DNA from: a virus
Reading direction: 5' to 3' (one strand)
Virus record (IMG/VR): IMGVR_UViG_3300042923_000801
Span: 1-24,266 of that record
Length of the DNA: 24,266 nucleotides
This document shows, piece after piece, positions 1,782 to 24,266 of the stretch; positions within the stretch are counted from its first letter, which is position 1; each line of letters begins with the position of its first letter. Position numbers and translations under genes: made by a program. The notes beneath the pieces were generated by a model. That model was not told the DNA's origin. It ran no database searches and was given only the letters and a program-made list of their open reading frames with translations.

Positions 1782-3653
1782 TTAATGCCTAAATAAGTTA
1801 CTAAATGCGTTAGTTGGAGTAGAGGAGTTTGATATACCTGTTGAGATAAAATAATCCGAATAGTCTGATACTACAGGTTTATACACCATTTGACCTCTTC
1901 TTAATGAGGCCAGATAAAAACAAAGTAAACCAAATACAAAGACATGATCATCATGCATTGTTTTCTTATCTGGTGGATAATCATATTTGATATTTCCTGC
2001 ATTTGTATATTTACACATAGTTATGATTTGTGTTTTCATTACTTCAATTTGAGCCAAAGACAATTCTTCTTCAGTAGTTAAAATATGTTTATGTTCATTT
2101 CCTTCATCGTCAATATTCAATATATATCCATTGTTATCATACTCCGCTGGAAACGTAACTACGCCAAGCTTTACCATTTTTTCTACCGCATCAAATATTT
2201 CGTTTCTATGTGCTCTAGGATCTACTAATTTCATTATATCTATTGCTTCTGGATATGAATCAATTGCCGTTTCATTAGCTTTATGAGACTTATCTATTAT
2301 TCCTTTATGCGTTTCTCCGTCTTTCCCTTCCCAATTTTCAAGCATATAATCAGCTACGCCACCAATCATTTGCCCACCAGCTCCAGAATCACAAATCACT
2401 GCCTTAATATTTTCATAATCAAGCCTCTGTTTATCATTTCCATTATAATCTAATAACATATCTTGAAATTTCTTTACCTGATCAGGAATTCTTAATGGGG
2501 TTTTCTTTTTTGTTGATATATCCACTAAACTAACCGCATTATGTAAATCCATACACCACCCCTTTTCAGGATCTTGAAAAAATTCCGCTATAGCTATAAC
2601 ACTATTATCATTTAATCTTGCTGAGTCCCAAGCTAAAGCAAATATTCTGTTTCCAGTATCATTACACAACAATGGGGGTCTGCGTTTTGTATGTTGCATT
2701 AAATCTCTTCTTGTTAAAATTTGACCTTCATGAGTATCGGCACTAAACTTATTATATAATTCTCTTAATGCTTTTTCTCTATTATCTCCCATAGCTTTAT
2801 CTACTTTATCTTGAGAAATAAGCGGTGGATAAATTTCGCCATTAAATTTTGCTTTCATAACTAAATCTATATTATAGTTACATACAAAATATTTTTGATC
2901 ACCCATTATCATTCTTTCCGAAAAATATTTGAATTTTTTATAAAATTCGGAAGAAGTATCACTTGCAGATGATGCATATAATAACTGCCTTGGAATTCCT
3001 TTAGGTTCTAATGTAATATCTATATTTCCACCCAATTTAAAATTTTCATCTTGGTTAACAAAGTTCTCCGCTTGAACAAAAAGTTCATCAGAAAACCAAC
3101 CTGCCTCATCAAAGCAAACTAAATTTGCTCTCTTACCTTTAATATTTGTTACATCTGAATTTAATGTATTAATTTCCGCACCATTAAATAAAGAGCAGGT
3201 AAACGAAGCTGGATTATGAACAAATCCATCAGAAGTAGCTCCATTCTTTTTTAATTCATTAAAAAATACATCTGTACTTCCAGTAAATGATTCTATTTCT
3301 TTTTTTGAAATCTTCTCAATTTTTTTAAAAACTTCTTTTGCTTGATCTCCGGTATTTCCTAAAAAGTATGTAACATGAAAAGGAAATAACATGCTTCTCA
3401 TCATTGTATAAATAGCTAATTTTGTAGTTTTACCAGCGTTTCTTGATTCAAGCCATAATACAAAGTCTTTAACCCATGAATTATACATTGCATATTTCTG
3501 CATATCCAATAATTCTATTCCCATAAATCTACTTGCAAATTCTATTGGATATTTTCTTCCCCATTGAATAACTGTCGTATATTTATCATAAGTCTCAAGT
3601 TTTCTCTGAGATATTTCTTTGTGCGAAGGTTTGTTTATAACGGTAATAGCCAT
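1782..3653 (-). CDS. terL: Terminase large subunit (ATPase/nuclease)
   Basis: This 623-aa protein is the packaging motor that cuts concatemeric DNA and pumps it through the portal. The N-terminal ATPase has a Walker A of the terminase type (ESRNAGKT, residues 69-76) and a Walker B (LVCFDEAGWF, acidic pair D182-E183). The C-terminal RNase H-like nuclease has spaced acidic residues: AWDSAR (D343), VICDSG (D422) and MHDDH (D568-D569). Its length is normal for the family. The ATG overlaps the upstream stop codon (TAATG), and GGAGG lies inside the end of the preceding gene, so the two are probably translationally coupled. The portal gene follows, the classic terminase-portal order. No truncation or missing catalytic residue is visible. 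Confidence 0.95.
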   Translation of the reverse strand: MAITVINKPSHKEISQRKLETYDKYTTVIQWGRKYPIEFASRFMGIELLDMQKYAMYNSWVKDFVLWLESRNAGKTTKLAIYTMMRSMLFPFHVTYFLGNTGDQAKEVFKKIEKISKKEIESFTGSTDVFFNELKKNGATSDGFVHNPASFTCSLFNGAEINTLNSDVTNIKGKRANLVCFDEAGWFSDELFVQAENFVNQDENFKLGGNIDITLEPKGIPRQLLYASSASDTSSEFYKKFKYFSERMIMGDQKYFVCNYNIDLVMKAKFNGEIYPPLISQDKVDKAMGDNREKALRELYNKFSADTHEGQILTRRDLMQHTKRRPPLLCNDTGNRIFALAWDSARLNDNSVIAIAEFFQDPEKGWCMDLHNAVSLVDISTKKKTPLRIPDQVKKFQDMLLDYNGNDKQRLDYENIKAVICDSGAGGQMIGGVADYMLENWEGKDGETHKGIIDKSHKANETAIDSYPEAIDIMKLVDPRAHRNEIFDAVEKMVKLGVVTFPAEYDNNGYILNIDDEGNEHKHILTTEEELSLAQIEVMKTQIITMCKYTNAGNIKYDYPPDKKTMHDDHVFVFGLLCFYLASLRRGQMVYKPVVSDYSDYFISTGISNSSTPTNAFSNLFRH

Positions 3654-8843: not shown

Positions 8844-10286
8844 TTATAAAGTTATTTTAGTACTTTTATTAACCGCAATAACTTTAGTAGTTTTACATTT
8901 ATTGCTTAATTCAGTTTCCAATTCTTTTTTAAATGAAATTTTTTCATCCTGATTTGAATGAACAAGATATATTTTTTCACAATTAATAGAAGAGTAGTAT
9001 TTCAATAAATCGTCATGCTGCATGTGGCTGCTGAATGAGTGTAAATCAACTATTGCCGCACGATTCTTTACTGCTTTACCATTTATAGAGATAGTTTTCT
9101 GTTCTTTGCCATTTTTTATTTTATATGCCAACGTATTCGTTGTGGCATATCCTATAAACAAAATACAATTATCTTGATTAGGCAAAATATGTTGTACCCA
9201 TTTTACACTTCTTCCAGCTTGGAGCATTCCGCTCGAAGATAATACGCACTTAGCTTTACCATCAGCCATAACGGATTTACTTTCTTCTGGTGTGTATGCA
9301 AATTTTACATTTTTCCAATTCATCATTAAGTCAAATTTATCTTTTGCATCTCCCTGTAATGATTCAGAATAGGCATTTAAAAGACGTATTGATAAAGGGC
9401 TATCTACGATAATTGGAATATTGAAATTTTCATCTTTCCCAAAAATAGAATACAAAAGCCATAACATATATGGAAGTCTGTCTAAGCTAAAAGTCGGTAT
9501 TACAACTATCTTTTTATTTTCAACACAAAACTGTGTTATTACTGTTTTTATTTTGTCTAAATCATTTTGTAAATCCTTTTTATTCATTGACCTAGAACTT
9601 GATGCATATGTAGCTTCACCAATCACTATATTGCTTTTTACTATTGGCGAAAACTTTTCTACAAATACTTTATTATTGTTTAATTTTGTATTCCCAATAT
9701 CGGAAGTAAATACAATTTTCTTAGTAGAGTTATTTAACGATATAAATAATTCCGTTTGTGCTGAAAACAATATATGTCCAGCATGAATAAATTTAAATTT
9801 CAAGAAATTATCCAATTCAAATATTTTATCAAATTCATATTCGTCTACATGATCTAATGCTAATTCGACTTCATTATCTGAATATAATGGTGTATATTCT
9901 TTTTCAAATTTATCAGAAAGATATTCGCAATCTCTTTGATTAATATAACTTGAATCATACCACATTTCTCTTAATATTCTAATACTTCCTTTTGGTACTA
10001 TTATTCTTGCATTAAAATCATATCTAAATAATGCCGGAATATTACCGATGTGATCCGCATGATTATGTCCAACAAATACATACTTTATTTCAGCCTTATT
10101 TTTTATATTACTTATAAGCTTTTTATTTAAATCATAATTCTCTTTAACAGTTTTGCCGTCTTGTATCGTTCCAACTTCAAATAGAGCCGTATTTCCGTTA
10201 TAATTTATTACTGAGCATGAGCCTGTTACAGACTCTGCATTGCCACCTATAATATCAATTGTTACTTTGTTATCTTTCTTGGCAAT
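8844..10286 (-). CDS. Beta-CASP metallo-beta-lactamase ribonuclease, AUU start
   Basis: 480 aa when started at ATT 10286-10284. Metallo-beta-lactamase motifs: HNHADH (74-79), HAGH (168-171) and TSDIG (D196). Beta-CASP motifs: PTFSLDR (264-270), SSGMLQAGR (about 351) and DLHSFSSH (H416, H421), with a final VHS at 443. This is the layout of RNase J/CPSF73-type RNA nucleases. The first ATG (9965) would delete the zinc-binding HxHxDH, so the true start must be upstream. The frame there holds no ATG, GTG or TTG back to TGA 10304-10302, but ATT lies 6 nt after AAGGAG. A TTG one base away is out of frame and stops after 7 codons. Likely role: processing or turnover of phage or host mRNA. Confidence 0.92.
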   Translation of the reverse strand: MAKKDNKVTIDIIGGNAESVTGSCSVINYNGNTALFEVGTIQDGKTVKENYDLNKKLISNIKNKAEIKYVFVGHNHADHIGNIPALFRYDFNARIIVPKGSIRILREMWYDSSYINQRDCEYLSDKFEKEYTPLYSDNEVELALDHVDEYEFDKIFELDNFLKFKFIHAGHILFSAQTELFISLNNSTKKIVFTSDIGNTKLNNNKVFVEKFSPIVKSNIVIGEATYASSSRSMNKKDLQNDLDKIKTVITQFCVENKKIVVIPTFSLDRLPYMLWLLYSIFGKDENFNIPIIVDSPLSIRLLNAYSESLQGDAKDKFDLMMNWKNVKFAYTPEESKSVMADGKAKCVLSSSGMLQAGRSVKWVQHILPNQDNCILFIGYATTNTLAYKIKNGKEQKTISINGKAVKNRAAIVDLHSFSSHMQHDDLLKYYSSINCEKIYLVHSNQDEKISFKKELETELSNKCKTTKVIAVNKSTKITL

Positions 10287-11118: not shown

Positions 11119-13968
11119 TTACATTTCTTTATTATTTCTATATTTCTGAACTCTTAATCTTGTGTTTTCTTTGTCTTTGATTTTTTGACATTTCTTACAT
11201 CTAATTGTTTTCATGTCACACGCACTTGTTATTATATCACATCCGCAATCAATACACTTGATATTTTTTGTTTTTTTAGGAATGTATTTAGCACAATCAT
11301 TGCAGTATTTATGGTAATTTTGTTTCTTTTTAAATCTTTTACCACATTTACCACAGACACCATCTTTATCTCCTATGTTCCTTTTTAAATTTTCTACAAT
11401 AATTTTACCGTAACAAAACCATAAAGACTCTTTTGACTTACTATTCTTTTCATCGTACAAATATTTAACTAGCATATCACAAATTTCATATTCAGAATAT
11501 TTAAATTTACTTAATTCATCTCGAATTTCTAGTGCTATATAAGATATATTACCTTTGTTTTCATCTTCCATATTAATTTTAAAATGATATGTACGATTTA
11601 ACTCGTTATATTTATTTATTAATTCTTCTGATAATTTAATTTGACTGTTATTCATCAACATAGTATAGTTAAATTTCCCAAACTTATTAATAGAAAAATT
11701 CATTTTTTTATTAATAATAATATCATCTAACTTGTTTACTATACTATCATTTTTACTTTCAATTTGAGATAACTCTTTGTCTTTTGCATAAATAAAAAAA
11801 TATGGTACTTTTTTCTTTGTGTATTTTGTAATTATTTTTTTTATTTCTATAGGTCGTTTAGGCTTATACAAAGTCTTTGCATAATCAATTGTAAAGTTAT
11901 TTTCCATGCAAAGTAACTTTATGGCTTTCATCTTTTCATCAGTAATAATTCCACTATTCCATATTTTTGTGATATCATTACTTATTGCTCCTATATTTCC
12001 TCCAGTATATGCTGCATTCAAACCATTATATATCTGCTCGTTTGTTAATATAACAGGATCTGCCTTCCTCATATTGTAATACAACGGAACAATATCTCGC
12101 ATATTCCTCTCCGCTATTTGTACAATGCTTTTTTCTGCTACAACCAAACTACGATCCCCATCTACATCAAATTGAAGTATTTTAGAAATTAAGTCATGAC
12201 AACTCGTATAAATAGCGTCAGTTATAAACCATTTTGATTTTTCATCATCTATTACATTATTTCTTACCGCATGTTCTCTGTATAAGTGTGGAGATCTTAA
12301 GCAATCAAGTTTTTCAACTTTCTTATACAAGTTACAATATACTTCATTATTTTGTAATAATCCTACTGGCTCTTTTATTCCACAAAATAAATTTTCACAA
12401 AAAGCGTACATGTCAGGTATTAAGAAAGTGTACTTCCCATCAATTTCTAACTTTGCAGATTTATAATCTTTGATTAAACTTAATTTAATTTGCCTTAATA
12501 CATCCTTTGTGTAAATATCTCTTAATAACTCGGGGTATATTTCTAACGCTTGTTGTAAATATGTTTTATTTTTATTGTACTTTGTCACTCCAAAAGCATT
12601 TAGCATGGAATCTACTGTAGATGACAAATTTACTATTTTATTACTTGATTTGAAAGCAATATCAACTAATTCATCATCTGTCATATCTGTAAGAGTTTGA
12701 ATCATTTGATAATTTATTTTTGATTTTTTTATATTATCTTCCTCTAAATTACAAATTCCTGCTTGACACTTATTTTCACTGAAATATTTTTGATACTCAT
12801 TCCATGATTCATAATATTTATACATTTTAAATTGACTTTTAGTAAAAATTATTTTTATATCTTCTTCTAGAATATTATGTTCTTTGCCATATATGTCTTT
12901 TACCATTTCATGTTTTATTTCAGGATGTAATTCATTCTGTTCTAATATAAATTTTTTGAAATCAAAAGTAGCAAGTAAACCTTTTACCCAAGGTAGTCTA
13001 CACATAAAATTCTTTTTACTTATAGACGGGAGCATCATGCCAGATCCATCTGTATGTGTAATTGGAACAGGCATCGTTTTTCTTTCTATTGTATAAGTAA
13101 GATCATCAATCAAATCCACCTCTCCGGTAACATTCGTTTCAAAATCTTCAACTACTATGGTTTTATTAATATCAAAATCTTTCCATAAATCAGTCGCGCT
13201 ATTAGTTAAAGCTAAATATGCTAAATATTTATTAACATTTATTCCGCCTAATTCATTTATTTTTTCTATTGTTAAACCACATAATAAAGTTTTAATATGT
13301 CTGTTCCAAACGGATTCTTTAATAAAAACTGTCTTTTTTGTACGAATTTGACCAGCAGAAGAAGTAAAAAACCTATACTTTTCCCCATTATAAATAAATC
13401 CGTGTAAAATCATATCTTTTATAACATCAAAATAATACACTTGAACTACCATAATATCTGTTGAGAGATCATTAGTTTTTAATCCAACCGTACGAGTAAA
13501 TGTTGACTCAAAAACTGATATTATGTTTTTAATATTTAAACTTTTTTCTTTTAAAACTCTCATTTGATAGCTATGATTAAACTCTTTATTATAATATTGA
13601 TTATAATCACATCTATATTCTAAGATTTGTAATAATTTATCTTTAGAACTTTCAATTAACAACTTTTTATGTTCAAGATATCTTTCAATGTTGTCCTTTC
13701 TATTTAAAAGCTCAATAATATTATAGCCTATATACCTATATTCTTGATCTTCGGGTATAAATGAATAATCATTTTTATTTATCATTTCTTCAATTTCTTC
13801 ATTATATCCATAAAAATTCAGTTTTTCATTTATTGATTTCATTTCATTTTTCAATTTGTTACGTTCTGATTTTAATTTATAAATAATATTATGTAACTTT
13901 CTTTCATTTTTATAATAAAAATCTCCAGTGTCTAAACTATAGATATGTATTTGTTCAGAAAGTGCCAA
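11119..13968 (-). CDS. Single-chain two-barrel RNA polymerase (YonO/QDE-1-like) with two C-terminal zinc ribbons
   Basis: 949 aa. The catalytic signature DVDGD lies at residues 601-605 (FDVDGDRSLVV), the Mg-binding DxDGD of the double-psi-barrel polymerases that include SPbeta YonO and eukaryotic QDE-1-type enzymes. YonO is a single-chain DNA-dependent RNA polymerase for phage late genes. About 40 residues before it comes LDCLRSPHLYREHAVRNN, like the conserved RxPxLHxxD region. A Gln/Thr-rich core (SSAGQIRTKK, about 205) precedes. The N-terminus is coiled coil. The C-terminus carries two Cys4 ribbons: C872/C875/C889/C892 and C905/C908/C924/C927. Start is TTG, 9 nt after AGGAGG inside the preceding gene and 2 nt after its stop. 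Likely job: transcribing from the ATAAATATAACA promoters (inference). Confidence 0.87.
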   Translation of the reverse strand: MALSEQIHIYSLDTGDFYYKNERKLHNIIYKLKSERNKLKNEMKSINEKLNFYGYNEEIEEMINKNDYSFIPEDQEYRYIGYNIIELLNRKDNIERYLEHKKLLIESSKDKLLQILEYRCDYNQYYNKEFNHSYQMRVLKEKSLNIKNIISVFESTFTRTVGLKTNDLSTDIMVVQVYYFDVIKDMILHGFIYNGEKYRFFTSSAGQIRTKKTVFIKESVWNRHIKTLLCGLTIEKINELGGINVNKYLAYLALTNSATDLWKDFDINKTIVVEDFETNVTGEVDLIDDLTYTIERKTMPVPITHTDGSGMMLPSISKKNFMCRLPWVKGLLATFDFKKFILEQNELHPEIKHEMVKDIYGKEHNILEEDIKIIFTKSQFKMYKYYESWNEYQKYFSENKCQAGICNLEEDNIKKSKINYQMIQTLTDMTDDELVDIAFKSSNKIVNLSSTVDSMLNAFGVTKYNKNKTYLQQALEIYPELLRDIYTKDVLRQIKLSLIKDYKSAKLEIDGKYTFLIPDMYAFCENLFCGIKEPVGLLQNNEVYCNLYKKVEKLDCLRSPHLYREHAVRNNVIDDEKSKWFITDAIYTSCHDLISKILQFDVDGDRSLVVAEKSIVQIAERNMRDIVPLYYNMRKADPVILTNEQIYNGLNAAYTGGNIGAISNDITKIWNSGIITDEKMKAIKLLCMENNFTIDYAKTLYKPKRPIEIKKIITKYTKKKVPYFFIYAKDKELSQIESKNDSIVNKLDDIIINKKMNFSINKFGKFNYTMLMNNSQIKLSEELINKYNELNRTYHFKINMEDENKGNISYIALEIRDELSKFKYSEYEICDMLVKYLYDEKNSKSKESLWFCYGKIIVENLKRNIGDKDGVCGKCGKRFKKKQNYHKYCNDCAKYIPKKTKNIKCIDCGCDIITSACDMKTIRCKKCQKIKDKENTRLRVQKYRNNKEM

Positions 13969-17452: not shown

Positions 17453-18555
17453 TTTTTACTATCCTCCAATTTAAGTATTTGTTTTATGTTATATTTATCA
17501 TTTTCATGATTGATGGTTATATCACATAGATTTGTAAATATATCTAAATATTTTTCACTATATTTCAATATGACATTTTTTACATCCTTATCATATCTTG
17601 TATTTGCATTTCTCATAATTAAAGATTGGAATTCTATATTAAATTCTTTGATAAAATCATCAATACTTTTATTTATGTCAAATTCCTTCAATAAAGATTT
17701 ACACCAATCCAAATGTATAAAATATACTTCATAAGTTTTGTATATGTATTTTATATTCCTAGAATTCAATTCTCTTGCCAATGCCAACGAAAATATCTTT
17801 GATTCATCCCCATAATATCTTTTATTAGCTCTACCTTTTTCTATTCCGGCTTCGTTATCTGCAATTTCAACACATTTAGTATAAAATCCCATTTCCTCTT
17901 CAGAAGCAGTATGTTCCTCTGATTCATAATACAATTCATACTTAGGTTTCCCATTTTCATCGTAGCCTGACATTCTCTCTGCTGGAATTGAACTATGAAC
18001 GACATTTGCTTCCCGCCATATTATTGAACCAGTACTTTTTAAATAATCTAATGACATAACGAGATAAGATGATATCATATCGTCTACCTTTATAAAGAAA
18101 TCTTTAACATCATCACTTTCCCACTCATATATTCTGGCAACTTCACTTCTAGAGTATTTTACGGTATCATAATTTCTATTTATCATATGTATCTGTTTTG
18201 CCCACTTACTACTTGTTAAAGCAATACGATTGTTTTCGTCATGCCCCTCAATTAACTTTAATAATATAAGTGGAACAATGTACCTATACATACCATTCAT
18301 CATTTTTTCTACTTCTTTAGATTTTGGAACAGAATATACCTCCTTAATTTCATATTTTCTGTTCCCGAGATCTAACAACTTACAATATCTGTTTGCACTA
18401 TTTATAATCGTAGTCTTATTACTACTAATAAACTTCCCATTCTCGTAATACTTATTCTTTTGTTTATCCGTCCCAAATAATTCAATTAAATCTTCTTCAT
18501 TTATAATTCCAATTGGGATAACTGGTTTAATATATTGATTTTTCTTTTTTCTAAT
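17449..18555 (-). CDS. Hypothetical phage protein, AUU start (368 aa)
   Basis: The frame is open back to a TAA just above the ribosome binding site. Its first ATG/GTG/TTG is the TTG at 18378, but the 59 codons before that read as ordinary protein (basic N-terminus RKKKNQYIKP, then NEEDLIELFG). A perfect AAAGGAGG stands 7 nt before ATT 18555-18553, so AUU initiation is strongly indicated. No family recognised: mostly helical, charged and soluble, with WREANVVHSSIPAERM around residue 185. It is the first full gene behind the leftward sigma-A promoter and is coupled to the helicase, so a role in replication or early regulation is plausible but unproven. The last 50 bases hold a phage promoter motif. 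Confidence 0.83.
   Translation of the reverse strand: MRKKKNQYIKPVIPIGIINEEDLIELFGTDKQKNKYYENGKFISSNKTTIINSANRYCKLLDLGNRKYEIKEVYSVPKSKEVEKMMNGMYRYIVPLILLKLIEGHDENNRIALTSSKWAKQIHMINRNYDTVKYSRSEVARIYEWESDDVKDFFIKVDDMISSYLVMSLDYLKSTGSIIWREANVVHSSIPAERMSGYDENGKPKYELYYESEEHTASEEEMGFYTKCVEIADNEAGIEKGRANKRYYGDESKIFSLALARELNSRNIKYIYKTYEVYFIHLDWCKSLLKEFDINKSIDDFIKEFNIEFQSLIMRNANTRYDKDVKNVILKYSEKYLDIFTNLCDITINHENDKYNIKQILKLEDSKN
17487..17498 (-). promoter_or_regulatory. Phage promoter motif ATAAATATAACA (helicase), inside coding sequence
   Basis: Exact 12-mer inside the 3' end of the 368-aa gene (encoding ...DKYNIK...), 34 nt from the helicase TTG. The codons there are compatible with both uses. Confidence 0.7.
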
Positions 18556-18587
18556 ACGAATACCTCCTTTAAATTAAATTGTTTACA

Positions 18588-18639
18588 ATCCTATTTTTGG
18601 TACATATATATAATATATATTATGTACACATTTTAGGAT
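18588..18639 (-). other. Long AT-rich palindromic hairpin upstream of the AUU-start gene
   Basis: ATCCTA/TAGGAT (18588-18593 and 18634-18639) enclose GTACATA/TATGTAC with an alternating TA core. It lies 18 nt above the AGGAGG of the 368-aa gene, so it could influence that gene's translation in RNA or extrude as a DNA cruciform. Confidence 0.5.
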
Positions 18640-18650
18640 AGGTAAATAGA

Positions 18651-18662
18651 TGTTATATTTAT
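18651..18662 (-). promoter_or_regulatory. Phage promoter motif ATAAATATAACA (368-aa gene)
   Basis: Exact 12-mer about 95 nt upstream of the AUU start, between two hairpins. Possible later-phase promoter for the whole leftward block, separate from the sigma-A promoter. Confidence 0.72.
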
Positions 18663-18721
18663 CTTATGGATATAAATTTGCGTAAACAACGTACTTTGTT
18701 GTTGTAGCAATGGCAATAAGC

Positions 18722-18748
18722 TTATTCTTTTTTATAAGCGTTTGACAT
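18722..18748 (-). CDS. Possible 8-aa leader peptide
   Basis: ATG followed by seven codons and TAA (MSNAYKKE), with GAGAAAGGAG 12 nt upstream of the ATG and 9 nt upstream of an in-frame ATT. Its 3' half is one arm of a GCTTAT/ATAAGC hairpin (18720-18739). Such an arrangement can couple translation to attenuation, but the frame is so short that chance is possible. Confidence 0.35.
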   Translation of the reverse strand: MSNAYKKE

Positions 18749-18772
18749 AATTATTATTTTCTCCTTTCTCGG

Positions 18773-18784
18773 TGTTATATTTAT
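18773..18784 (-). promoter_or_regulatory. Phage promoter motif ATAAATATAACA (leader region)
   Basis: Exact 12-mer just upstream of the ribosome binding site of the possible leader peptide and about 50 nt downstream of the sigma-A promoter. Confidence 0.7.
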
Positions 18785-18836
18785 TTAGTAGTAATAACTT
18801 TGTAGTATTTATCGGTATAGTAACCCCTACACTTTA

Positions 18837-18865
18837 ATTATATCATAGGTGAAAAATTCTGTCAA
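18837..18865 (-). promoter_or_regulatory. Consensus sigma-A promoter, leftward
   Basis: Minus strand TTGACA (18865-18860), exactly 17 nt of spacer, then TATAAT (18842-18837). This is a perfect vegetative promoter for host RNA polymerase, starting near 18830. It would launch leftward transcription of the 368-aa protein, helicase, endonuclease and RNA polymerase genes before any phage polymerase exists. Confidence 0.88.
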
Positions 18866-18870
18866 GCAAA

Positions 18871-18882
18871 TGTTATATTTCT
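18871..18882 (-). promoter_or_regulatory. Near copy (11/12) of the phage promoter motif
   Basis: Plus-strand reading TGTTATATTTCT, one base off the complement of the 12-mer, directly upstream of the -35 box of the sigma-A promoter. The flanking TGTTnTATTTCTTTAnTAG also resembles the rightward promoter at 20193-20212. Confidence 0.4.
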
Positions 18883-18934
18883 TTATTAGTTTTTTGATAC
18901 TTCGGGAGCTGATCAGGTAGAAGAGTTATAACCC

Positions 18935-19060
18935 CAGTAATCATGCAGAACAGAGCGATTTTTGCCTTTAACAGATAAATCATATTTTAACCATTTTCTT
19001 AGATTTTTCAACTTTTCTCTATGATTTCGAAAAAAATCCAGTGTTTATGCATGATTACTG
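18935..19060. repeat. 13-bp perfect inverted repeat, arms 100 nt apart
   Basis: CAGTAATCATGCA (18935-18947) and TGCATGATTACTG (19048-19060) are exact reverse complements. The 100 nt between are pyrimidine-rich on the plus strand. This could close a structured RNA domain or be a pair of protein-binding sites brought together by looping. Confidence 0.7.
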
Positions 19061-19342
19061 TGATTTTCATGATATTTTTGATTATTCTATTTTATAGGTA
19101 AATATACTTTATACATTGGCATAAATGTAGTGTTTGTCAGCGTTGCAGCTATTTAACATTTATTTTATTGCATAAGTATGCATTCTTATTATGTAACACA
19201 TGAATTTGGCTTAATGGTTTATTTTACTGGATTCTACCGAAACGCCTATCGAAGAATAATGGGGTAAAATGTGAATATTGTTGCGGAATTGATGAATATT
19301 TGCTTCGATGTTTATTTTGAATTATGAGGTGTGGATTGAACA

Positions 19343-19397
19343 GATGGGGCATTCCGGTGAAAATAAATCCGGTCTGGATTTGTAAAATAGCCCCGTC
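19343..19397. ncRNA. Candidate structured RNA domain with GC-rich closing stem
   Basis: GATGGGGC (19343-19350) pairs with GCCCCGTC (19390-19397) over 8 bp including one G-U. Inside is an AAATCC/GGATTT hairpin with a 5-nt loop. A run of G/C pairs is exceptional in this AT-rich DNA. Strand and function unknown. Confidence 0.45.
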
Positions 19398-19589
19398 ATA
19401 TGGTATAGATACTGCATAATAGTATAGTATTATTCAGCGTTTTAGTAGTCAGTTTCATAAAAGATGATTTTAAGAATGTCATTTTAGCTGTAATACGGTG
19501 CATGAGATTGAAATAATGTAAAGTTAACTTGTCAATTGTAACTTTATTCGTTATTAGTGTACTAGTAAGATAGTACAGATAGACTATGA

Positions 19590-20000
19590 AAACGTTCGGA
19601 TTATTTCTGTTGCAAATGCAACAAACTAAAATTATAACGTTTACTGATATATCGTTTACCGTAATAATGCGTTTATATGTATCGTATGCCGATATAGTAT
19701 AGCCGTTGGTAGCTCAACGTTAACCAATAGAATGAATATAACTTCAAATTATATCAACGTGTATTATCATAACTATAACTTATAACATGTTAATCAACAA
19801 GAATTTATCGTAATACGATATATAATCCAATGTTATCACGACATCATTAACCATAACTAATACTTATACCATTAACGGCTAATCTAGTGCAATATATCAT
19901 GTGTTATATTTATCCACTAATCAATCCGCAACATGTTGATAAATAAATGCAACCTAACCATATACCATTGTAACCGCGTATAAGCTCCATGCAGCCATTA
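19590..20000. other. Possible replication origin (iteron- and DnaA-box-like words)
   Basis: CGTTTA occurs at 19639, 19653 and 19670 with related AACGTT words at 19592 and 19715. TTATCCACT (19909-19917) and TGTTGATAA (19934-19942, inverted) are each one base from the DnaA box TTATNCACA. An AT-rich stretch follows. Position at the divergence of the two gene blocks fits an origin, but the matches are imperfect and no initiator gene is recognised here. Confidence 0.3.
19902..19913 (-). promoter_or_regulatory. Phage promoter motif ATAAATATAACA in non-coding DNA
   Basis: Exact 12-mer with no gene within 1.3 kb downstream on the minus strand. It would transcribe leftward through the hairpin-rich region, perhaps making non-coding RNA or an origin primer. 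Confidence 0.6.
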
Positions 20001-20193
20001 ATCAAATCAGGCATAGGATAATACCTAAAATCAATTATAATTAATTCTATGTGGTACAATATATAGTGGTATAACTATGATTATATCAATAATAACCACA
20101 ATATATAGTATGAAATAAATAGTATTATATGATTCTGTTTTATAAAAATATCACGAAAACTTAATAAAAATCGTAAAAATAATAAATTATATG

Positions 20194-20222
20194 TTGTATT
20201 TCTTTAATAGATATGATATACT
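20194..20222 (+). promoter_or_regulatory. Probable sigma-A promoter, rightward
   Basis: TTGTAT, 17-nt spacer, TATACT, about 50 nt upstream of the first rightward gene. Four matches to TTGACA and five to TATAAT with ideal spacing; likely the early promoter of the rightward block. Confidence 0.6.
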
Positions 20223-20270
20223 TATATCAAGATAAGAAATAAATAAAACCTAAATATGGAGGATATAAAA

Positions 20271-20465
20271 ATGAAAAGAGAATATGTAATAGAAATTTGT
20301 GGGTATGGGAAAAAGGTTAGATATGCATTAAGAGAAAGAATAACTCCAACTATGTTAAATGCAGCAATTAAAGTTAGTAGGTCACTCGACAGTGTAAAGA
20401 CATATGCAATAGAAAATAATATCAAAGTTGTAGCTATTGGTGACATGTATCAAGTAATGGCATAA
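20271..20465 (+). CDS. Small hypothetical protein (64 aa), first rightward gene
   Basis: 64 aa. Start at ATG 20271 because GGAGG (20258-20262) lies 8 nt before it; the longer in-frame ATG at 20256 would contain that site. Basic, compact alpha/beta-looking sequence (YVIEICGYGKKVRYALRERI, then NNIKVVAIGDMYQVMA) with no recognised family. Its stop codon TAA shares a base with the hammerhead ribozyme, so its mRNA would be cut about 54 nt after the stop codon. Confidence 0.8.
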   Translation: MKREYVIEICGYGKKVRYALRERITPTMLNAAIKVSRSLDSVKTYAIENNIKVVAIGDMYQVMA

Positions 20466-20525
20466 TTACCCTGATGAGTCTTTGAAAATTAAGACGAAAC
20501 TAACCTTAAATGGTTAGTCGGTAAT
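20465..20525 (+). ncRNA. Type I hammerhead ribozyme
   Basis: All conserved parts are present and correctly joined. Stem I 5' strand ATTACC (20465-20470). Core CTGATGA (20471-20477). Stem II GTCTT/AAGAC with an 8-nt loop. Core GAAA (20495-20498). Stem III ACTAACC/GGTTAGT closed by TTAAAT. Unpaired C at 20519 as cleavage site, preceded by the required U. Stem I 3' strand GGTAAT (20520-20525). Stems II and III are capped and stem I is open, hence type I. Predicted self-cleavage is after C20519. It follows the stop codon of the 64-aa gene directly, so it would trim that gene's mRNA 3' end and give the downstream RNA a 5'-OH. Confidence 0.93.
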
Positions 20526-20529
20526 AGGT

Positions 20530-20603
20530 TAGTGTCACCGACTTATAGTCACCGCCTTCACCAGATCATTCCAATAGCGGTCATGTCTCGTGGAGCGACA
20601 CTA
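20530..20603 (+). ncRNA. Cloverleaf-like structured RNA after the hammerhead
   Basis: TAGTGTC/GACACTA (20530-20536 and 20597-20603) form a 7-bp outer stem enclosing three hairpins: GACT/AGTC (loop TAT), ACCGC/GCGGT (loop of 21 nt) and CTC/GAG (loop GTG). The outline resembles a tRNA, but there is no TTCGA-type T-loop, no 7-nt anticodon loop and no CCA, so it is not a functional tRNA by sequence. It starts 10 nt after the ribozyme cleavage site and may be the stabilised 5' end of the cleaved RNA. Confidence 0.5.
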
Positions 20604-21286
20604 CATCGGTTTATCAAAGCACAGAAAGCCTATTCTGGTTAAACAGTAAAGTAGTTAAACAGTAAGTAAACAGATTATGATTAAACATTCCGAATAACAA
20701 AAATATTTAAATCAATCTAAACAGGGCTATAATAAATAGTTATTACGTGCAAATCGTAAAATAGGTTATCAGTAAATGAAACATATCAATCATAAGTCCT
20801 TAAAGTCCTAACGGCACTTGAACAATGACAACTTAATCTAAGTCGGCTTTTCGTATAGACACGAAAGGAAGTTACTCATACAACTTACCCATAAGACATG
20901 AAACGGGATACATTGGAAAGTGTGAGACTGCCAGCATACAATAAGTAATGCATTGCAGTATAAATAACAAATCTAACAATTAACTGCTTACTGAATTCTA
21001 TCAGAATTAGCGGTTAAACAGAATTAATATAACAGTGTTTTTATATAATGCTAATAACCTGATTACCTGTATAAGTAATAGCATATGGCAATCACATAAA
21101 CAGTATATATCATATAAAGTGTATACACCAACGAAAACGAATTAATCAACAGAATGTAGCGTAAAACCGAAATTTGAGGTTGATTTAAGTAGTTGAATAT
21201 TAAAGGAATGAAACACAAAATAAATATGATTGAATGGATTTGGCAAGGTTATTAGCATGAATATTTACATTGCAACTCAATAACAA
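20604..21286 (+). other. Non-coding stretch with AAACAG repeats and hairpins
   Basis: About 680 nt without a credible gene. AAACAG occurs six times (twice as TTAAACAGTAA near 20640 and 20656; also near 20668, 20719, 21016 and 21108). Hairpins include TTTCGT/ACGAAA (about 20848-20866), AATTC/GAATT (about 20994-21008) and a nested ATGCT/AGCAT plus ATTAC/GTAAT (about 21048-21085). A plus-strand near copy of the phage promoter (ATTAATATAACA, 11/12) lies at 21023-21034. It could be a long 3' UTR, a non-coding RNA or an origin part. Confidence 0.45.
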
Positions 21287-21298
21287 ACAAATATAACA
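21287..21298 (+). promoter_or_regulatory. Near copy (11/12) of the phage promoter, rightward, abutting parS
   Basis: ACAAATATAACA differs from the 12-mer at one base and is on the plus strand, 32 nt before the next gene. The same bases also allow a weak sigma-A reading (TTGCAA, 16 nt, TATAAC). parS begins on its last base, so transcription would start inside the ParB site. Confidence 0.5.
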
Positions 21299-21314
21299 TG
21301 TTTCACGTGAAACA
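21299..21314. promoter_or_regulatory. Perfect parS site (ParB/Spo0J binding)
   Basis: TGTTTCACGTGAAACA is identical to the consensus 16-bp chromosomal parS bound by bacterial ParB (Spo0J in Bacillus), and the palindrome extends to 18 bp (ATGTTTCACGTGAAACAT). ParB loads at parS, spreads, and with ParA/Soj and SMC drives segregation. No ParA or ParB gene is visible in the window, so the site would use host ParB or a phage ParB encoded elsewhere. It lies in the leader of the 57-aa gene, between a promoter-like element and its ribosome binding site. Confidence 0.92.
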
Positions 21315-21330
21315 TTAAGAGGTAGCCATC

Positions 21331-21504
21331 ATGATAAAATTTGCGAAGGTAATCGTAACAAAAGACATTATTATTAAAGGAATCCTGATAGTAAAAGCCG
21401 GAACAAAAGGAATGATCTTAAGATTGACAGAAAGTAACCCATTTGTTAGATTTAGCACAGGGCGAATGATGAAAATACCAAAACATTTATTAATGGTATT
21501 GTGA
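21331..21504 (+). CDS. Small SH3-like hypothetical protein (57 aa)
   Basis: 57 aa. AGAGG lies 8 nt before the ATG. Beta-strand-rich with a GTKGMILRL turn and a final FSTGRMMKIPKHLL, reminiscent of the small SH3-like barrel proteins frequent in phages of Firmicutes (family resemblance only). It is the first gene after parS and 42 nt before the next; ParB spreading from parS could silence it. Function unknown. Confidence 0.75.
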   Translation: MIKFAKVIVTKDIIIKGILIVKAGTKGMILRLTESNPFVRFSTGRMMKIPKHLLMVL

Positions 21505-21546
21505 AACAAACTAACATTTTATAGTGAATAAGGAGGATATTAAACA

Positions 21547-21882
21547 ATGGATAATACACAAAAAGAAATTGAAAAAATAATGGTAGAAAGTCTTTTTACA
21601 AAAGGTGGTACAATTTCAGAAGCTGAAGCAAGGGAAATAGTAAATAACAAAAAACAATTACAAAAGGTTACTGTTAGAAATTCCACTGGGCATATTATTA
21701 CTGGCTATGGTGTGATTATAGGCGAAACAAAAACAATGATAAAAGTAAGATTAACAGAAGTAAAAGATTATTGGAATAAACTATCAATCAATGACATTAT
21801 AGGCTTTTCTAAACTTGATGGAGTAAGCAAAGATACAAGACATAAAAGACAATACAAACTAGATTTTTGTATAGAATACTAG
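21547..21882 (+). CDS. Hypothetical protein (111 aa)
   Basis: 111 aa, preceded by AAGGAGG 10 nt before the ATG. N-terminal 40 residues are helical and charged (EKIMVESLF, ISEAEAREIVNNKKQ). The C-terminal part is beta-rich (KVTVRNSTGHIITGYGVIIG) and could be a small barrel, ending in a basic stretch DTRHKRQYK. No family recognised. Member of the rightward small-gene operon. Confidence 0.78.
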   Translation: MDNTQKEIEKIMVESLFTKGGTISEAEAREIVNNKKQLQKVTVRNSTGHIITGYGVIIGETKTMIKVRLTEVKDYWNKLSINDIIGFSKLDGVSKDTRHKRQYKLDFCIEY

Positions 21883-21914
21883 CATAGAATTAAGATTTGG
21901 TAGTTTTAAGATAA

Positions 21915-21980
21915 CTCTCTTGCAGAGGATAGCGGATTTTATTCCGCTATAATGCACTAGCAGCCGTTCCAAGTCGGTGC
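21915..21980 (+). promoter_or_regulatory. Three-hairpin 5' leader before the 70-aa gene
   Basis: Consecutive hairpins: CTCT/AGAG (loop TGC), ATAGCGGA/TCCGCTAT (8 bp, loop TTTTAT, 21929-21950) and GCAGCCG/CGGTGC (one bulged G, 21960-21980). The ribosome binding site AGGAG follows after 9 nt. No T-tract follows, so this looks like a structured leader or processing signal rather than a terminator. Confidence 0.5.
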
Positions 21981-22003
21981 AAATATATAGGAGTGATAAA
22001 ACT

Positions 22004-22216
22004 ATGAAAAGAGAACGTAAAGACAAATGGGCAGTGTATGGAGAATATGGTGGACATTTTACCAATCTTATAGAAGCTAAGCAATGTGCTAAGGAAGCAT
22101 CTAAATTAATCGAAAACGAAGAAGTAAGCATATTGCTAATTGAAGATGGTATTTATTATATTGATTACTTAAACGGTAAATGTATTCGTGATGGATGGAC
22201 AATTAAAAAGAAATGA
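22004..22216 (+). CDS. Small hypothetical protein (70 aa)
   Basis: 70 aa from ATG 22004; AGGAG lies 10 nt upstream, inside a longer frame opened by a GTG at 21977, which is therefore not the start. The sequence suggests a short alpha/beta fold: WAVYGEYGGHFTNLIEAKQCAKEAS then ILLIEDGIYYIDYLNGKCIRDGW. It resembles small phage proteins that carry a strand-helix-strand unit, but no named family is recognised. A structured leader precedes it. Confidence 0.78.
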   Translation: MKRERKDKWAVYGEYGGHFTNLIEAKQCAKEASKLIENEEVSILLIEDGIYYIDYLNGKCIRDGWTIKKK

Positions 22217-22261
22217 AATCCTTGTTTGCTTTGGTCTTACAAGGTAGAAAGAAGGTAAACA

Positions 22262-22468
22262 ATGAGTAATAAGAATAAACTAAATATTGATATGTGGTAT
22301 GGGGATAATCAAAAAGAAGCTGATAGAATAGACGTTCTTTTTTATCCAAACGGTTGCGAATACAGAGGGAATATATATAAAGATGGAAAAACAATTGGAG
22401 ATTATTCTTGCAAGGATTCTGTATTATTAGAAAAAACATTTCCACAATTAACATTTAATTGGGGTTAA
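22262..22468 (+). CDS. Small hypothetical protein (68 aa)
   Basis: 68 aa. AGAAGG lies 6 nt before the ATG. Acidic, beta-rich: RIDVLFYPNGCEYRGNIYK, then a GKTIGDYSCKDSVLLEKTF segment of the kind seen repeatedly in small early proteins of Firmicute phages. No known function. The 45-nt spacer before it can form a CCTTGT/ACAAGG hairpin. Confidence 0.75.
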   Translation: MSNKNKLNIDMWYGDNQKEADRIDVLFYPNGCEYRGNIYKDGKTIGDYSCKDSVLLEKTFPQLTFNWG

Positions 22469-22525
22469 ATAACCAATTCAAACAATTATTTTATCGCTAT
22501 TAAATAGCAGAAAAGGGGTTAAATA

Positions 22526-22759
22526 ATGAATAAGTGTTATGTTAGTATATCAAGTATTCCAACAGAGAAAGCTATAGAACAGGATATATTATATATTTGT
22601 GCTGAATGTTTAAATAAAGAAGAAGCAGAACAAAACAAAAACTTTTTAGTTTCTGAATGGTTAGAAAAAGTAAATAAACAAAAAAAATATATTAAGCCAT
22701 CAAGTCTAGTATTTATTGCTATATTGGAGGCAGAAGGTGAACTAGAATTAACACGCTAA
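22526..22759 (+). CDS. Small hypothetical protein (77 aa)
   Basis: 77 aa with AAAAGGGG 7 nt before the ATG. Helical and charged in the middle (LNKEEAEQNKNFLVSEWLEKVNKQKK), strands at both ends (CYVSISSIP; SSLVFIAILEAEGELE). One CxxC pair (YICAECL) is present but no second pair, so a zinc site within one chain is unlikely. Unknown function; part of the rightward operon. Confidence 0.76.
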   Translation: MNKCYVSISSIPTEKAIEQDILYICAECLNKEEAEQNKNFLVSEWLEKVNKQKKYIKPSSLVFIAILEAEGELELTR

Positions 22760-22825
22760 AAGGATATTCCATTAGTCAAATAAAAGTCTGTTAAATATCA
22801 AATAAACGTAACAGGAGGGTTTTAC

Positions 22826-23086
22826 ATGGAAAATAGAAGAAAAGTATTGTTTACCTATGGAATGTCTAGCGATGCAATGATTATTATAACAAACGCACCA
22901 AGTCAGGCCATAGAACAATGGTGTAAACATTATAATGCACAAATAGAAAACGGTGGGCACTTTGAATTATTCGACACACTGAAAGCACAATACTATGTAA
23001 AATTATTGCACGATTCTGAAATTAATGATAGAGAAGACATTGAAATTATCGGATATGATGAACAATACAACCTAAACAATTATTAA
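22826..23086 (+). CDS. Small hypothetical protein (86 aa)
   Basis: 86 aa with AGGAGGG 7 nt before the ATG. Alpha/beta pattern: DAMIIITNAPSQAIEQWCKHYN, then FELFDTLKAQYYVKLLHDSE, with an acidic tail. No recognised family or catalytic motif. The short spacers before and after it share AAAAGGATATTC, and the one after folds as GGATAT/ATATCC. Confidence 0.76.
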   Translation: MENRRKVLFTYGMSSDAMIIITNAPSQAIEQWCKHYNAQIENGGHFELFDTLKAQYYVKLLHDSEINDREDIEIIGYDEQYNLNNY

Positions 23087-23127
23087 CTTATAAAAAGGAT
23101 ATTCTATATCCATAGGAGGGCGAAACA

Positions 23128-23364
23128 ATGACAGTAAAAGAAAAAGATTATTGTGTGGATTTATTACTTGAGGGGTTAAAGAATGCTAAACAGTCAAAAG
23201 AAGATTTTAAAAAATTAAACGATAGTAATTTGTCAGATACAGAAAGAAACATTGCAGAATTACAAGGACAAAATCATTTGGGTTATGCAGAAGGGATTTA
23301 TCATTCGTTAGTAACATTAAAATATAACCATGAACTTATGAAAGAATTGTCATCATTAATATAA
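23128..23364 (+). CDS. Small helical hypothetical protein (78 aa)
   Basis: 78 aa with AGGAGGG 8 nt before the ATG. Predicted almost entirely helical and charged (VDLLLEGLKNAKQSKEDFKKLN, then AELQGQNHLGYAEGIYHSLVTL), consistent with a small dimeric helical bundle. No family recognised. Part of the rightward operon. Confidence 0.76.
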   Translation: MTVKEKDYCVDLLLEGLKNAKQSKEDFKKLNDSNLSDTERNIAELQGQNHLGYAEGIYHSLVTLKYNHELMKELSSLI

Positions 23365-23400
23365 ACATAAAAATACAAATTCTATAAGGAGACAAAAAAC

Positions 23401-23574
23401 ATGTTAAAGAAATATGAGATAGTTGCAAAGGGAACTATTCAAAATGATATAAAGAAAAAAGTAATTAAAGCTTGTAATGATGTTAATGCAAAATCAAATG
23501 CTTATGACGAGTTCAAGAATGAGTTTATACTTGATAAGTTTACAATATTATCAGTTAAAGAAATTTCTGGATAA
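23401..23574 (+). CDS. Small hypothetical protein (57 aa)
   Basis: 57 aa read directly from the sequence: ATG at 23401 with AAGGAG 9 nt upstream, stop TAA at 23572-23574. Basic N-terminal half (AKGTIQNDIKKKVIKACNDV), helical, ending in DKFTILSVKEISG. No family recognised. Spacing and ribosome binding site match its neighbours, so it is very likely real. Confidence 0.72.
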   Translation: MLKKYEIVAKGTIQNDIKKKVIKACNDVNAKSNAYDEFKNEFILDKFTILSVKEISG

Positions 23575-23625
23575 AAAGTGCATTTTATGCATACTTTTAT
23601 TAAACAGTAAAGGAGATATTAAACA

Positions 23626-23850
23626 ATGAAAGATATGAAAGAGGCATTTAAGAAATATAAAGTAGAAGCTAACAGCATAGAAGACTTTTTAAAACGATAT
23701 ACAAAACCTAGCAGAAATGAACAAAGACCGATTGATTATCAAGAAGCAAGAATAAAATCACATACTGAAGACTTACAAAAGTATGGTTACACATTTATAA
23801 CACATCATGACAGTATAACGGGCGAATGTGTTAGTTATTATGGTAGATGA
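23626..23850 (+). CDS. Small hypothetical protein (74 aa)
   Basis: 74 aa with AAAGGAG before the ATG; the leader GATATTAAACAATG is shared word for word with the 111-aa gene. Charged helical N-terminus (KDMKEAFKKYKVEANSIEDFLKRY), a Pro/Arg-rich middle (KPSRNEQRPIDYQEAR) and a beta-like end (YTFITHHDSITGECVSYYG). Unknown function. The spacer before it forms an interrupted AAAAGT-GCAT/ATGC-ACTTTT hairpin. Confidence 0.74.
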   Translation: MKDMKEAFKKYKVEANSIEDFLKRYTKPSRNEQRPIDYQEARIKSHTEDLQKYGYTFITHHDSITGECVSYYGR

Positions 23851-23891
23851 AATGGGTATTTGATGAATGATAAAGAAATACAACAATAAAA

Positions 23892-23925
23892 TGAGCCTTA
23901 CCACCGACCAAAGTTATAAGGCTCA
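23892..23925 (-). terminator. 9-bp hairpin, terminator-like on the minus strand
   Basis: TGAGCCTTA/TAAGGCTCA perfect stem with a 16-nt loop. On the minus strand it is followed by TTTTATTG; on the plus strand no T-tract follows. It may stop antisense transcription or act as an RNA-stabilising hairpin in the rightward message. Confidence 0.5.
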
Positions 23926-23948
23926 AAGAAAATTAAATAACCAATTAC

Positions 23949-23982
23949 AGGCTATCGAGAATATTATACTTGATAGCCTTTT
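23949..23982 (+). terminator. Intrinsic terminator, rightward
   Basis: AGGCTATC/GATAGCCT 8-bp stem with a 15-nt loop followed by TTTTG. It lies about 100 nt after the 74-aa gene and 36 nt before the last gene. It could end part of the rightward transcripts, although its T-tract is short. Confidence 0.6.
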
Positions 23983-24018
23983 GTATTGTCAATTAAACAA
24001 TAACAGGAGGAAAATAAA

Positions 24019-24266
24019 ATGGATATGAAATATAGAGTAGAACAAAGAACAGAAAATACATGGTGGTATTATTTTGAAGAACCTAATAACAAAGGTGAAA
24101 CAATGATAATTGAATTATATAGATGTATTAATCCAGGTGGGAAAAATGCTTTGCCAGTATTATGGAAACAACATGGAATGATTGATAGAGTTTTGGAAAC
24201 ACATTGGAGTATATCAACATACGTAACAGATACAGAAGGAAATTGTTATGGAATATACAATCCACA
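24019..24266 (+). CDS. Hypothetical protein, cut by window edge
   Basis: ATG 24019 lies 8 nt after AGGAGG; the frame is open for 82 codons to the window end. Trp/Tyr-rich and probably beta-rich: ENTWWYYFEEPNNKGETMIIELYRC, then ALPVLWKQHGMIDRVLETHW and YVTDTEGNCYGIYNP. This is typical of small accessory phage proteins, but no family is recognised and the C-terminus is not seen. Confidence 0.75.
   Translation, partial: MDMKYRVEQRTENTWWYYFEEPNNKGETMIIELYRCINPGGKNALPVLWKQHGMIDRVLETHWSISTYVTDTEGNCYGIYNP

Follow-up and report, generated by a model that had tools for sequence, protein, structure and literature searches.

A chromosomal-type parS site in phage DNA as a candidate landing site for host ParB

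Introduction

The DNA of phi29-family phages is reportedly handled by the host protein Spo0J (ParB), which sets a precedent for parS on a phage. The genome of phi29 contains no exact parS and four sites with one mismatch (TGTTTCACGTGGAACA). Three of them are located inside annotated genes of this 19-kb phage, whereas the last begins just 1 nt past gene 16. The locus presented here resembles that of phi29 in having a parS-type site with no ParB gene annotated. It differs in that the site is exact, precedes the start of a small gene, and is carried by a fragment of a probably large phage with its own RNA polymerase.

Other phages carry a partition system of the P1 type. The mycobacterial phages RedRock and Miko likewise depend on a cis-acting centromere, but they encode both ParA and ParB, and the parS loci of RedRock are 8-bp direct repeats, unlike the chromosomal palindrome (PMC7157519). 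In the window analysed here, no parA and parB genes stand beside the site as they do in such a phage-encoded ParABS. The KorB operators of plasmid RK2 offer a further likeness, as a ParB-like clamp acts there on promoters. KorB is the plasmid's own protein, however, and is a model only for the alternative in which parS is an operator (PMC11790492).

The closest chromosomal counterpart is found in bacterium 1xD42-87 (G104), a Clostridia-type host to which NCBI gives no class. Its genome contains two copies of the identical 16-mer, at 1.6–3.4 kb from the genes for ParA and ParB, which adjoin each other, whereas the site described here is on a virus record, single, and without parAB alongside. 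A single parS was reported to suffice for ParB to form foci and for the chromosome to be segregated (PMC8299390), and the parS-contacting residues R173 and G201 are conserved in ParB (PMC7383237).

No survey of parS in phages was found in the literature searched, although an earlier mention in the parS survey of Livny et al. 2007 is possible. If host ParB loads on the genomes described below, unrelated virus groups exploit the bacterial centromere. This would bear on phage localisation, packaging, lysogen stability and early gene control, and phage genomes with parS would be simple natural templates for the study of ParB clamp biology. What a virus gains from parS without a spore is a testable question that reaches beyond the single case of phi29.

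The parS site and its surroundings

The window spans all 24,266 bp of its virus record, and the genome that it comes from is probably larger. The window encodes a portal protein, a terminase, a UvrD-like helicase, a beta-CASP protein and an RNA polymerase. The polymerase belongs to the Pfam RdRP family and is taken to be YonO-like. Genes to the left of 18.4 kb run leftward and small genes to the right of 20.25 kb run rightward. Long stretches without convincing genes extend over about 18.56–20.25 kb and 20.47–21.33 kb. The parS site is located 7.3 kb 5' of the polymerase gene. The relevant features are:

1782..3653, minus strand: terminase large subunit, used as a query for finding relatives
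11119..13968, minus strand: phage RNA polymerase (Pfam RdRP, PF05183), used as a query for finding relatives
18871..18888, minus strand: inverted near-copy of the AT-rich element, adjoining the promoter match of the leftward genes
21270..21297, plus strand: weak promoter-like pair TTGCAA-16-TATAAC, found by eye, ending 1 nt before parS
21281..21298, plus strand: AT-rich element TAACAAACAAATATAACA before parS, matched at 16 of 18 positions by the inverted copy at 18871–18888
21298..21315, no strand: 18-bp perfect palindrome enclosing parS (A21298 and T21315 added to the 16-mer)
21299..21314, no strand: exact 16-bp parS, TGTTTCACGTGAAACA
21331..21504, plus strand: 57-aa ORF, its ATG 16 nt after parS with AAGAGG in between
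21547..21882, plus strand: 111-aa ORF, the next after the 57-aa ORF

In sequence, the 16-mer is an exact match to parS of the chromosomal type. It is the only parS in the window even when three mismatches are allowed, a loose setting at which 13 of 100 shuffles also yield a site. From the base composition, an exact parS is expected 7e-6 times in the window. The A before and the T after it are also the commonest flanks among 146 viral parS sites. A first-pass annotation of this DNA had described the match as identical to the bacterial site, extended to 18 bp and negligible by chance, and each of these points stands; the search that it proposed for further sites returned none in the window at up to three mismatches. 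Its statement that no parA or parB is in view also holds for the window, which is probably a fragment, as neither the ParB_N profile (PF02195) nor tblastn with one host ParA and ParB detected a relative in the 24,266 bp. This absence says little about the phage itself, since the window is probably incomplete and the largest terminase relatives reach 85–150 kb. The window contains no exact DnaA box, and nothing convincing was found near parS for Noc, Spo0A, CodY or Fur motifs.

The AT-rich element immediately before parS agrees with its inverted copy at 16 of 18 positions, as compared with 13–15 at best in 30 shuffles. The inverted copy is beside a 12/12 match to a sigma-70-type promoter for the leftward genes (18865–18837). 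The claim that parS follows a near-copy of the phage promoter is borne out only in part, by the 18-nt repeat. The promoter at parS is itself weak and putative: the pair TTGCAA-16-TATAAC is not listed by the promoter scan, which demands T as the last base of the −10 element. Fusion of a promoter to parS is plausible but unproven. As parS sits between the putative promoter and the ribosome-binding site of the small gene, a side effect on that gene is likely, and it is by its position that parS might be credited with gene control.

The 57-aa ORF has no match in Pfam or PHROGs, and no relatives of the 111-aa protein were found in viral contigs. The first leftward protein has no confirmed relatives and is absent from all 13 records with a related terminase. 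Neither the whole window nor the terminase matched the phage collection.

Relatives of the phage

The terminase query retrieved 13 records, none of which contains parS at two mismatches or fewer. The polymerase query retrieved 80 records totalling 4.99 Mb, in which about 0.002 exact parS are expected. Four of them have exact sites: G045 (two, plus two with one mismatch), G123, G162 and G179 (two, 47 bp apart). Two copies of a palindromic variant, TGTTCCACGTGGAACA, occur in G174, and one-mismatch sites in G108 and G146. A reversed-pattern control gave 2 of 80 records at two mismatches or fewer. Six of the seven site-bearing records are at least 86 kb long, and ParB_N was detected in none of the seven (four exact, one palindromic variant, two with one mismatch). 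Since the site is absent from all 13 terminase relatives and an exact copy is lacking in 76 of the 80 polymerase relatives, parS is no fixed part of this phage type. Loss from all close relatives had been proposed as a refutation of the ParB reading; such a loss is seen among the terminase relatives, and not among the polymerase relatives with their four exact cases.

In all four relatives with exact parS, the site is 5' of the polymerase gene, as in the window, at a distance of 3.4–17 kb. This shared placement is suggestive, with a chance of about 7e-4 if the four genomes are independent and with a limit that was chosen after seeing the data. An ATG is found 12–45 nt downstream of parS at five of nine sites (that of the window, three in G045 and one in G162), often with a ribosome-binding site in between. 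No comparably clear start follows the fourth site of G045, the site of G123 or the two sites of G179.

Motifs for other host proteins were observed close to some of these sites. In G123 (L254, reverse complement 9562–9737), five exact DnaA boxes are located 60–160 nt after parS; this is the only cluster of at least three boxes per 300 bp in the 1.5 Mb of polymerase-relative loci searched, and a candidate for an oriC-like, centromere-bearing phage origin. In G179 (L256, 13422–13595), two perfect and one near-perfect CIRCE elements, presumably HrcA operators, directly precede the two exact parS. In G108 (L258, 7098 and 7335), a perfect box, which we take to be of LexA type, is 237 nt from the one-mismatch parS. 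Judging from these motifs, the parS regions of relatives may bring together the sites of several host proteins: DnaA besides ParB in G123, and HrcA/CIRCE besides ParB in G179.

A dependence of parS on lifestyle, as read from the integrase type, was considered and not retained. Tyrosine recombinases were found in 32 of 32 relatives, and a large serine recombinase in 0 of 5 relatives with a parS palindrome (including the G174 variant) vs 6 of 27 without (p = 0.55).

parS across viral DNA

In viral contigs, a 16-mer scan located at least 120 stretches with an exact parS. The control palindrome TGATTCACGTGAATCA, which differs from parS by one symmetric change, was present in 2 stretches, and TGTCTTACGTAAGACA, a permuted palindrome of equal composition, in none. 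When positions 2 and 15 were left free, at least 120 stretches were again obtained, and 134 of the 146 sites listed were exact parS. As changes that keep the palindrome are nearly absent from viral contigs, recognition of the DNA is favoured over an RNA hairpin.

The sites favour intergenic positions. In the 120 listed stretches, 79 of 146 exact sites fall outside ORFs of at least 100 aa, which cover 84% of the DNA. A second gene model placed 66 of the 140 sites scored between genes, where 9.8% would be expected (p = 1.3e-29); the six remaining sites, at locus ends, were dropped. The orientation of the genes around parS did not differ from the control in the 120 listed loci. A single parS was counted in the fetched DNA of 103 of the 120 listed records, and five in each of L017 and L044. 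The idea that parS marks phage origins through DnaA boxes was unsupported, with 5 boxes near and 18 far in the 120 listed loci (rate ratio 2).

A 30-base query around the window site matched 465 records of the phage collection, and in 222 of these the matched piece was at least 99% identical. Non-exact matches are part of both numbers, some partly off parS (the Aeromonas row, for example), and among the 60 of 465 matches listed, the matched piece is often merely the 16–18 bp palindrome. The names most frequently encountered were Listeria, Pseudomonas, Microbacterium, Arthrobacter, Bacillus and Gordonia.

Direct counts in fetched DNA gave three exact parS in Butyrivibrio phage Bo-Finn, the annotation of which contains no ParA or ParB, and one in microvirus CA82. 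The inovirus bajarodino virus 6 (L262) has six in 5,910 bp, three of which start 1–2 nt past the last base of a gene. Hungatella phage CH17P1 (partial genome) has one, Bromius two in 6 kb, Gordonia phage Orchid two in 5.2 kb and Roseobacter phage DSS3P8 one in 5.9 kb. In Gordonia phage Luker (L268, ~181), the second parS centres a much longer palindrome. Its RNA would fold into a strong hairpin as well, so that a terminator may serve here as parS at the same time.

Selection on parS was also approached by aligning named phages. The Listeria phages and one Gordonia pair were too alike, and Luker and PatrickStar did not align at parS. One parS base differs in the alignment of Tempo and Wilca. 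Metamorphoo and Shotgun, in which parS is at positions unmatched by the alignment, were ambiguous.

ParB of the virus and of the host

The ParB_N profile (PF02195) was applied to 90 of the at least 120 parS-bearing viral records (L002–L051 and L082–L121), the other 30 listed being covered by tblastn only. It matched two of the 90 (0 of 40 and 2 of 50), one of them over the cut-off. With one host ParB and ParA as tblastn queries, ParB was found in one and ParA in none of the 120 fetched stretches. These numbers make contamination by host parAB loci unlikely, though possible. As there is usually no sign of a ParB of their own, the phages with parS probably borrow the reader protein of the host.

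Such a reader is available in the host of a relative. The genome of G104 includes a terminase 81% identical to that of the window, and its ParB has the domains ParB_N, HTH_ParB and ParB_C; together with its ParA and its two exact parS, this means that the host of a related phage has the identical centromere. The second terminase match, a Clostridia MAG, has no exact parS and one site at 1 mismatch.

Discussion

It is considered probable, though by no means settled, that the site in the window is a working parS for the chromosomal ParB (Spo0J) of the host, through which the phage DNA would be treated in the way of the host's own origin region. Binding of host ParB to the site is very likely. 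Once there, host ParB-CTP would load as a sliding clamp and spread across the neighbouring early region, and ParA and SMC would then position or segregate the phage DNA as they do host origin DNA. It is more doubtful that the phage gains chiefly by positioning or segregation, a proposition to which we lean somewhat less than to its contrary. Recruitment of host ParB, as the first-pass annotation had it, remains the most economical account of the palindrome controls, the ParB_N matches in 2 of 90 records, and the co-occurrence of ParB with identical parS in G104.

The particular uses that the same annotation envisaged fared less well. Entry into the forespore and plasmid-like segregation appear to be special cases, as exact parS is also carried by phages of Listeria, Gordonia and Ruegeria, by an inovirus and by a microvirus. 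Listeria, Gordonia and Ruegeria are not known to form endospores, so that spore entry, as reported for phi29, does not account for the phages annotated with these hosts and cannot be the general benefit. Nor does plasmid-like partition account for everything, as phi29 is virulent and so, we assume, are the listed Listeria phages. The suggestion that the phage senses the partition state of the host through ParB found no support.

The recurrence of the site invites a broader reading, which we hold tentatively and at slightly less than even weight: centromere mimicry would be widespread, the exact parS of the host being kept independently by tailed dsDNA phages, by microviruses and by inoviruses across many hosts, often at the starts or ends of genes. 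The ParB-CTP clamp would thereby load, mark the viral DNA as an origin and tune early genes besides.

The tuning could also be the main purpose. Host ParB, or a clamp locked in place, would then chiefly repress or time the small early gene 16 nt after parS, the centromere protein serving as a transcription factor. Of the nine sites in the window and the polymerase relatives, the five with an ATG 12–45 nt downstream are compatible with this, as are the four parS-like sites of G045, three of which precede three different small genes. In tandem gaps of the 120 listed loci, parS is at a median of 47 nt from the downstream start vs 89 nt for the control. Pseudomonas ParB represses promoters beside parS3 and parS4 (PMC5521831), and KorB acts both as a sliding clamp and as a co-repressor (PMC11790492). 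However, the distance preference is weak (p = 0.046), 74 of the 146 viral sites are inside ORFs, and the promoter before the window parS is weak and putative. An operator as the principal role is judged unlikely. More unlikely still is that multiplied phage genomes act as a sponge, pulling ParB off the host origin and stalling segregation or division. Multiple copies would suit such a role in the 5.9-kb inovirus with six, in Bo-Finn with three and in L017 and L044 with five each, but the window has one, like 103 of the 120 listed records in their fetched DNA, which is few for a sponge. Titration is the least likely benefit for phages with a single site.

Two further alternatives dispense with host ParB. 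The ParB, and possibly the ParA, that reads the site could be encoded in a missing part of the genome, as in phage-plasmids. The window is probably a fragment, G008, one of the terminase relatives, has a gene for a 324-aa protein that contains ParB_N and weakly matches HTH_ParB, and ParB_N is present in two of the 90 parS-bearing viral records tested. But G008 has no parS, none of the seven polymerase relatives with a site at two mismatches or fewer has ParB_N even though six are at least 86 kb long, and a private centromere would leave the identity with the host consensus unexplained; we regard this as improbable. The site might finally have no ParB role at all and be a palindrome that arose by chance, a hairpin in RNA or a piece of a terminator. 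Once transcribed, it can fold into a hairpin of 7 bp (−5.6 kcal/mol, z −2.5), and a parS of Luker centres a longer palindrome. Against this, the chance expectation is 7e-6, similar palindromes are nearly absent from viral contigs (2 and 0 stretches), and no terminator-like sites were found in 18300–24266, which leaves this possibility hardly credible. Host ParB acting at a working parS is retained as the preferred explanation.

Other elements of the window

At 18379–18560 (minus strand), the frame of the first leftward ORF stays open upstream of the TTG listed as its start. Inspection by eye showed that it reaches an AAGGAGG near 18560. This suggests a non-ATG start some 60 codons earlier.

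Two ribozyme-like motifs were observed on the plus strand. The segment 20465–20525 has the geometry of a hammerhead ribozyme (CUGAUGA, GAAA and GUC; stems of 6, 5 and 6 bp), with a cleavage predicted after 20519; its Hammerhead_3 and RAGATH-1 scores are under the Rfam gathering threshold. A type-P5 twister ribozyme at 21921–21978 scores 43.8 bits, over the Rfam cut-off. As the two motifs bracket the parS segment, the transcript between them may be released as a defined RNA.
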